Assembly (NCBI RefSeq): GCF_036884295.1
Contig: NZ_CP145608.1
Coordinates: 124,001 to 188,000 of the forward strand
Length of the DNA stretch: 64,000 bases
Reading direction: 5' to 3'
Source: Brochothrix thermosphacta DSM 20171 = FSL F6-1036
Lineage (GTDB): Bacteria; Bacillota; Bacilli; Lactobacillales; Listeriaceae
Below, piece after piece: positions 17,869-62,345 of this stretch (its first letter is position 1; each line of letters begins with the position of its first letter). The position numbers and the translations under genes are program-made. The notes below the pieces were generated by a model. It searched no databases, had not been told where the DNA came from, and was given only the letters and a program-made list of their open reading frames with translations.

Positions 17869-17907
17869 TTTAAAAAGATAACTACTAATACTATCTTCTT
17901 AGTCTGA

Positions 17908-17940
17908 GCACCTTCCAAATAATTTGGAAGGTGCTTTTTT
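17908..17940 (+). terminator. Terminator after the GH3 operon
   Basis: GCACCTTCCAAAT and its perfect complement enclose a 3-base loop and are followed by seven T. Confidence 0.9.
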
Positions 17941-18063
17941 ATTTTTCAGCAAATTTTTTTCTAGTACTTCAACTAAAACAATGGTTTGGTACTTAATTGC
18001 TTGAGAAATCTTCGTCCCATACTGTTCTCGTAAACGGATAAATCCGTAACGATGTCAGTAATT

Positions 18064-18180
18064 TCATAAACGCAAAAAAATCACTACAAGACCTGAAATT
18101 TCTAGTCTAATGAGTGATTTTTTAGCATTCCAATTTGGATAAAGTAGAATGAGCTTGTTATTCTTTTACTTTTTCTCCAG
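18064..18180. repeat. Nested-hairpin repeat, copy 1 (shortened)
   Basis: Shares with copy 2 the 5' end (TTCATAAACGCAAAAAA), the AGACCTGAAATTT arm, the TCTAGTCTAATGAGTGATTT arm and an almost identical 60-base 3' part ending TTTTACTTTTTCTCCAG. It lacks the inner stem of copies 2 and 3, exactly as expected from a deletion between the two GAAATTT words. The AAAAAATCAC ... GTGATTTTTT arms can form a bidirectional terminator. Confidence 0.75.
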
Positions 18181-18206
18181 AATTCCAAGCTTACTTTATC
18201 AAAATT

Positions 18207-18364
18207 TCATAAACGCAAAAAACTCACCAGACCTGAAATTTAAGTGCTTTAGTAGGCGTGAATCAGCCTACCCCAACTGAAATTTCTAGTCTAATGAGTG
18301 ATTTTTTAGCATTCCAATTGAGATAAAGTAGAATGAGCTTGTTATTCTTTTACTTTTTCTCCAG
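18207..18364. repeat. Nested-hairpin repeat, copy 2 (full length)
   Basis: About 158 bases. Three nested stems: AAAACTCAC with GTGATTTTT, AGACCTGAAATTTAAGT with ACTGAAATTTCTAGTCT, and GTAGGC with GCCTAC at the tip. A second hairpin follows, AAAGTAGAAT pairing with ATTC-TTTTACTTT. No open frame fits the element. Confidence 0.8.
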
Positions 18365-18389
18365 TTGGAACACCTATCCTCCAGATAAA

Positions 18390-18500
18390 TTTCAAAACAA
18401 AAAAACATTAGACCTGAAATTTAAGTTTTAAATAGACATGGACCAGTCTATACTAACTAAAATTTCTAGTCTAACGAATGTTTTTTTATTTTTCCAATTT
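18390..18500. repeat. Nested-hairpin repeat, copy 3 (diverged)
   Basis: Keeps the same architecture with compensating base changes: AAAAAACATT with AACGAATGTTTTTTT at the base, AGACCTGAAATTTAAGTT with AACTAAAATTTCTAGTCT in the middle, and TAGAC ... GTCTA at the tip, so the fold is conserved although the tip sequence differs from copy 2. Its right end lies next to the stop codon of the metallo-beta-lactamase-fold gene on the minus strand. Confidence 0.7.
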
Positions 18501-18529
18501 ATTGAAGGATGAGCTAGGTGTTTTCACTT

Positions 18530-19147
18530 TTACTTCAAAAATGGATTTGTTGCTTTTTCATGTCCGATTGTTGTGCTGTCACCATGGCCTGGATAGGCTG
18601 GCAATATATCGGGTAAAGTAAGTATGTTATCGCGGATACTTTGTACGAGTTGTTCTTGACTGCCTAAGTAGAGATCAGTTCGTCCAATACTTCCTTTAAA
18701 CAGGGCGTCGCCGCATACGATAAAGTCTTCAAAAACAATGGTTACGCTGCCTGGTGAATGTCCGGGTGTTTCAACGACATGAAAAGAAATATCACCTAGT
18801 GTATAGGTTTTACCTGTTTCAAATAGTTCTTCGGCGGCTTTTGCTACAATCGGGTTACCGCTGCCTGCTGAAAGATTTAACTCAGGATTAACAAGCCATT
18901 CTTTTTCAATGGGGCTGACATAGACCGGAATTGTGTAAAGGTCGCGTATAGGTTGTAAAGAGGCGATATGATCAAAATGCGCATGTGTCAATAAAACTGC
19001 GACTGGTTTCGTTGCTGTTTTCTCTATTGTTGCAACGATTGTCTCATAATCTTCACCAGGATCGATAATTAAGCTATAACGATCATTATGTACGATATAA
19101 CAGTTTTCTTGAATGTTTCCGTTAACGATACGTTCAATTTTCAACAT
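18530..19147 (-). CDS. MBL-fold hydrolase, glyoxalase II-like (YqgX type)
   Basis: A 205-residue metallo-beta-lactamase-fold protein. The metal-binding THAHFDH motif lies at residues 54-60, and further ligands are the His in ETPGHSPGS, the Asp in VCGDALF and the His in PGHGDST. The family hydrolyses thioesters such as S-lactoylglutathione or bacillithiol analogues; the substrate here is unproven. The frame extends 11 codons upstream, but AGGAGG before the ATG at 19147 decides the start. It is divergent from murQ and shares its regulatory region. Confidence 0.88.
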   Translation of the reverse strand: MLKIERIVNGNIQENCYIVHNDRYSLIIDPGEDYETIVATIEKTATKPVAVLLTHAHFDHIASLQPIRDLYTIPVYVSPIEKEWLVNPELNLSAGSGNPIVAKAAEELFETGKTYTLGDISFHVVETPGHSPGSVTIVFEDFIVCGDALFKGSIGRTDLYLGSQEQLVQSIRDNILTLPDILPAYPGHGDSTTIGHEKATNPFLK

Positions 19148-62042: not shown

Positions 62043-62345
62043 AGCTCGGTGTCACTCATTGTTGTATCTGCGCTTGCTTAATCACATACAGTAAGTATGT
62101 TCATGTCGCATTGCTCGATACGCCGCGATTGCCATCCGAGCTAAAAACGCTGATTATAGAAAGTGTTGTCATCGCTTAGTGTTGTATCTGCGCTTGCTTA
62201 ATCACATACAGTAAGTATGTTCATGTCGCAGTGCGCGATACGCCGCGATTGCCATCCGAGCTAAAACGCTGATTATAGAAAGTGTTGTCGTCGCTTAGTG
62301 TTGTATCTGCGCTTGCTCGATAGGCTACGATTGTTATTTGAGCTA
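62043..62345 (-). repeat. 120-bp tandem repeat, 2.5 copies
   Basis: GTTGTATCTGCGCTTGCTTA begins at 62061 and 62181, and the shared first 17 bases recur at 62300, so the period is 120 then 119 bases. The third unit lacks about 40 bases between GCTTGCT and CGAT. Read on the minus strand each full unit holds CATACTTACTGTATG and AAGCAAGCGCAGATACAAC, similar to the 23S-5S spacer hairpin. The first unit is bounded by inverted AGCTCGG / CCGAGCT. The gap up to tdk contains nothing else. Confidence 0.75.

Follow-up and report, generated by a model that had tools for sequence, protein, structure and literature searches.

Small dispersed intergenic elements are familiar from the Lactobacillales, where Streptococcus pneumoniae carries RUP and the modular BOX, and mobile hairpins of another kind are found in fungal mitochondrial DNA as the double-hairpin elements. 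For the EFAR repeats of enterococci, the original study by De Gregorio and coworkers reportedly described a variable assembly of 16 sequence types, with sizes of 42–650 bp, and stem-loops are said to serve as their insertion targets, part of the target stem being kept at the ends. In a paper citing that study, EFAR is listed among the bacterial MITEs (original: De Gregorio et al., 2009, FEMS Microbiol Lett 292:7–12; ref. 22 in PMC3733652) and characterized as a palindromic intergenic repeat of the Lactobacillales, most copies being ~170 bp long (PMC3733652). The Efa-1 repeat of E. faecalis is intergenic too, with 65 copies of 163 bp that fold as two adjacent stem-loops (PMC2267715), and we infer that it represents the same family as EFAR.

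Against this background, we analyzed a stretch of 64,000 nucleotides from the chromosome of Brochothrix thermosphacta DSM 20171 (NZ_CP145608.1, 124,001–188,000; hereinafter the window), in which three tandem copies of a modular imperfect palindrome (109, 184, and 180 bp) occupy positions 18060–18532 between convergent genes. A first-pass annotation had located three such copies at 18064–18500; the place was right, and the true span proved somewhat larger, with its right end taking in the stop codon of a gene coding for an MBL-fold hydrolase (18530–19144, minus strand). Unit limits follow from the tandem junction: on the plus strand, units are bounded by CTTTTTCTCCAG ... CTTTTA, equivalent to TAAAAG ... 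CTGGAGAAAAAG when read in the hydrolase gene's sense. Thus delimited, the array comprises, all on the minus strand, copy 1 (18060–18168; covariance model match with E 1.9e-7), the complete copy 2 (18169–18352; 3.7e-20), which combines type A outer arms and a type A terminator stem with a type 2 inner stem, and the complete copy 3 (18353–18532; 9.2e-19), with outer arms and terminator stem of type B and an inner stem of type 1. As had been proposed from the letters alone, copy 1 equals a full copy minus the inner stem, 44 bp being missing between two direct TGAAATTT words (equivalents in copy 2 at 18234–18241 and 18278–18285). Between copies 2 and 3, both the tip and the stems have diverged, with pairing kept. 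The stop codon of the hydrolase gene (TTA on the plus strand, 18530–18532) is itself the first sense triplet of copy 3 (TAA-AAG), such that the array would form the 3′ UTR and terminator of this gene. Since the plus-strand beta-glucosidase gene on the left has an ordinary intrinsic terminator of its own (17907–17945, plus strand; a 14-bp stem then a T run), separate from the array, the latter belongs to the hydrolase gene.

Read in mRNA sense, a complete unit starts with T(A/G)AAAG and runs through the outer arm, an A-rich/U-rich terminator stem, AGAC..GTCT and GAAATTT stems, and a variable inner stem capped by an 8-nt loop, followed by the matching arms and a CT(A/G)GAGA end. What had been described as a second hairpin in each copy corresponds to the outer arms of the element, which are able to pair with the outer arm of a neighboring copy too. 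Folding of 18060–18515 yielded −127.6 kcal/mol, far beyond chance (z = −10.3 vs shuffles), and copy 2 folded alone gave z = −6.6. Elsewhere in the window, 62052–62317 hold a 147-bp direct repeat (95% identity, offset 120 bp) with no similarity to these palindromes.

Using copy 2 as query, BLAST recovered 57 pieces at ~21 loci of the 2.56-Mb chromosome, a single contig. When a covariance model trained on 17 complete copies was run on the same genome, 20 complete copies scored E < 1e-12, and copy 1 and partial copies were recovered as well. Counted as halves, there are 40 left and 38 right. The copies belong to a modular palindromic repeat family, seen so far in one species within what was searched, for which we use the working name F1. 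A local duplication only, the outcome that an absence of further copies and of pairing conservation would have indicated, is ruled out by the ~20 further loci, and the further copies in this genome have conserved pairing. Complete units in the window measure 180–184 bp.

Abutting the array is a second repeat, F3, of ~48 bp (CCCATACTGTTCTCGTAAGCGGATAAATCCGC..GATGTCAG), whose hairpin-forming copy at 18013–18060 (plus strand; chromosome 142013–142060) is fused to the left end of copy 1. F3 has 74 matches in the genome, often in short tandem arrays (e.g., chromosome 260730–261033, 345823–346107, and 2037765–2038044, among others); the 35 further family genomes searched yielded none. The F3/copy 1 junction, GTCAGT|AATTTCA, recurs at loci L042, L045, and L047, and with ACAGT at L031; at L041 and L050, the outer arm of F1 elements also contains F3 or a related repeat. 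Two further repeats were observed: a palindromic unit of 121 bp (CAAGCCAAAACTTGTGAGATTTC..AATCTCTTCAG..GGGCTTG) with end words in common with F1 (L047:85–475, where it forms three tandem copies, and L041:804–1456), and a repeat ACAACCGATGTTTTTAGCTATTTCAAAAAAGCATCAGGC..CCAAACAGGTTGTT that adjoins F1 halves at L035, L043, L046, and L042:3019–3189.

The suggestion that selection acts on the structure is supported by compensatory change across the family, beyond all shuffles. In the named structure of 31 pairs, 92.5% of cells are paired (alignment A1) and 15 of the 31 pairs change on both sides; the covariation score of 0.283 (shuffles 0.110 ± 0.012) is reached by 0 of 500 shuffles, and every measure exceeds all 500, with the proviso that the copies are related and cell counts are hence not independent events. 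The signal is lost when partners are slid by 1 to 3 columns (score 0.078 at most). Terminator stems occur in several versions (TCACT/AGTGA, ACATT/AATGT, CCACTAC/GTAGTGG, TACGGCG/CGCCGTA, and others), as do inner stems, and these are reshuffled: inner type 1 is found with terminators B, C, and D, type 2 with A and D, and type 3 with C and E. Despite the differing combinations, the arms match level by level in almost all complete copies (typed by eye). Pairing in palindromes can be restored without selection by arm-to-arm template switching, which counts against reading the covariation as constraint. However, each of the 20 complete copies folds more stably when read as the mRNA of its abutting gene (mean z −5.8 vs −4.7). 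On the plus strand, A.C, which corresponds to a G.U wobble in the transcript, is also more frequent than G.T (21 vs 7, the (37,94) pair left out). This strand bias of stability and wobbles points to selection on the transcript, and not solely to symmetric arm correction in DNA. The strong fold and covariation would also fit a structured RNA kept for a regulatory or catalytic function of its own, in line with the stable RNA that the first-pass annotation had entertained. That proposal gained no support: the element has no Rfam match at gathering score, none was found outside its own genome in the searches made, including the relatives, its inner stem is freely exchanged, and it sits at the 3′ ends of unrelated genes, all of which make such an RNA highly improbable.

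Across the family, the gene flanking the right end is transcribed towards the element at 19 of the 20 fetched loci, as it is in the window; in the window and at 14 of these loci, no more than ~60 nt separate its stop codon from the matched stretch. The stop codon lies further away in L033, L035, L041, L043, and L046, where the longer gaps of the last four are filled at least partly by other repeats. The exception is L047, which is without a facing stop codon and where a CidA-like gene (named by eye from its sequence) starts. The left neighbor occurs in either orientation; hence, the convergent setting, true of the window, is incidental and no rule of the family, the constant being a stop codon that faces one end. 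Near this stop codon the elements present the core of an intrinsic terminator, an A-tract, a stem, and then a U-tract, and a close stop leaves no room for another hairpin, which makes the element the likely terminator of such genes. A simple terminator scan did not flag the elements, which counts against this role. From sequence and placement, we consider it likely that F1 acts as the intrinsic terminator of the abutting gene. The earlier idea of a retained terminator module is thus supported by the 3′-end placement, and it is compatible with a mobile element instead of being an alternative to it.

Several arrays contain elements lying in the loop of another, up to three deep, with the outer halves still pairing. 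For instance, L041 has three left halves then three right ones, while L034, L045, and L049 have two and two. Partners in bracket order (n = 8) have a mean terminator-stem energy of −9.3 kcal/mol vs −5.6 kcal/mol for non-partners, and a permutation on the summed terminator and inner stems of these eight pairs gave p ~0.001. The nested junctions fall at one loop point, GACTGATT|CATGTC on the sense strand; a loop without insert reads, for example, GACTGATTCATGTC, and one with insert GACTGATTACCGAAAG ... CTGGAGGAATGTC. At L039, partner energies are poor for the outermost nested pair because its inner arm is partly deleted. In other arrays halves are lost on one side, and in L047 right halves are multiplied, as expected from recombination between neighboring direct repeats.

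These features bear on whether the family moved at all. Without any transposition, ectopic gene conversion together with hairpin-templated replication slippage could have homogenized ordinary terminators and increased their number, the family being a by-product of recombination between terminators. Conserved words of 13–15 bp (AGACCTGAAATTTAA, AAATTTCTAGTCTAA) could serve as joints for such events, the inner and terminator stems are reshuffled among copies, and the multiplied right halves of L047 and the deletion in copy 1 attest slippage or recombination. Moreover, neither a Y1 transposase (PF01797; 0 matches in the single-contig genome, control genomes positive) nor a reverse transcriptase (RVT_1) was found in the genome. 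Yet the nested junctions share a single loop position, the insert being a whole element, and unrelated genes are followed by whole elements; we regard this origin as improbable, if worth keeping in view. The same transposase search largely refutes REP/BIME-type repeats moved by a REP-associated tyrosine transposase of the IS200/IS605 family (RAYT): hairpin repeats between genes in mosaics would fit them, but the missing PF01797 match and a unit of 110–185 bp, as against 20–40 bp for REPs (PMC3733652), leave very little likelihood for this origin.

Outside its own genome, F1 gave no match among 35 further family genomes, 59 further relatives searched by BLAST, or 394 further genomes of the order (model R1), nor in plasmid and phage collections. 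An exact two-word pattern found none in a species-genome collection, a strict search that misses diverged copies and from which the own genome was perhaps excluded, and the exact pattern likewise found none in viral contigs. No searched relative carries the family, so the pairing evidence comes from within this genome. In the sister species (G001), which shares the gene order, a short plain terminator is all that separates the two convergent genes, and Vagococcus proximus, the best named match of the neighboring hydrolase (53%), has a plain terminator behind the homologous gene. The syntenic empty site is a plain hairpin, and no retained stem of that hairpin was recognized, whereas insertion into the family's own loops is seen; F1 is known from one genome.

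Building on the dispersal, compensatory pairing, fixed stop-codon orientation, matched nesting, and absence at the syntenic site of the sister species, our main reading (probability roughly 0.7) is that F1 elements are mobile repeats that serve as intrinsic terminators of abutting genes, and that they spread by insertion, their own loops included, and were trimmed later. A small mobile hairpin element, one of the initial suggestions, is supported by the dispersal at ~21 loci together with the structural constraint. Under this mobile-terminator reading, insertion of the unit would have populated ~21 sites and, in the loops of existing copies, produced the nested hairpins; recombination between neighboring homologous halves and slippage between short direct repeats would later have trimmed or multiplied halves. 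More tentatively, and with less confidence than in mobility as such, the element might target terminator loops, including those of its own copies, such that the host terminator stays foldable, and might in this way have taken over the 3′ ends of ~20 genes in one species whose genome is without Y1 transposase or reverse transcriptase. The arrays provide a clear sequence record of palindromic repeats growing into their own loops with pairing kept at every level, and of dispersed repeats in a putative role as gene terminators; their nesting records the order in which events took place, and with a fixed junction the mode of movement becomes testable.

Among known systems, REP/BIME resemble F1 as dispersed extragenic palindromes in mosaics, but the F1 unit is larger and its genome is without a RAYT-type transposase. 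By description, F1 is also like RUP and BOX, small, dispersed, and intergenic in the same order, although to our knowledge those contain no long nested palindrome with a terminator stem. The double-hairpin elements of fungal mitochondria, likened again by description, belong to organelle DNA and offer a lead. F1 shares with EFAR/Efa-1 the nature of an intergenic palindrome of the ~170-bp class in Lactobacillales. As is reportedly also true of EFAR, its length varies by interchangeable modules, with outer, terminator, and inner stem types that recombine, plus halves and nests. Matched multi-level nesting and a fixed stop-codon orientation, in contrast, do not appear in the EFAR/Efa-1 descriptions as far as these were available. 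We claim no membership of F1 in that family; on the best reading, F1 would be a mobile terminator repeat that is specific to its lineage and resembles EFAR/Efa-1 in kind.
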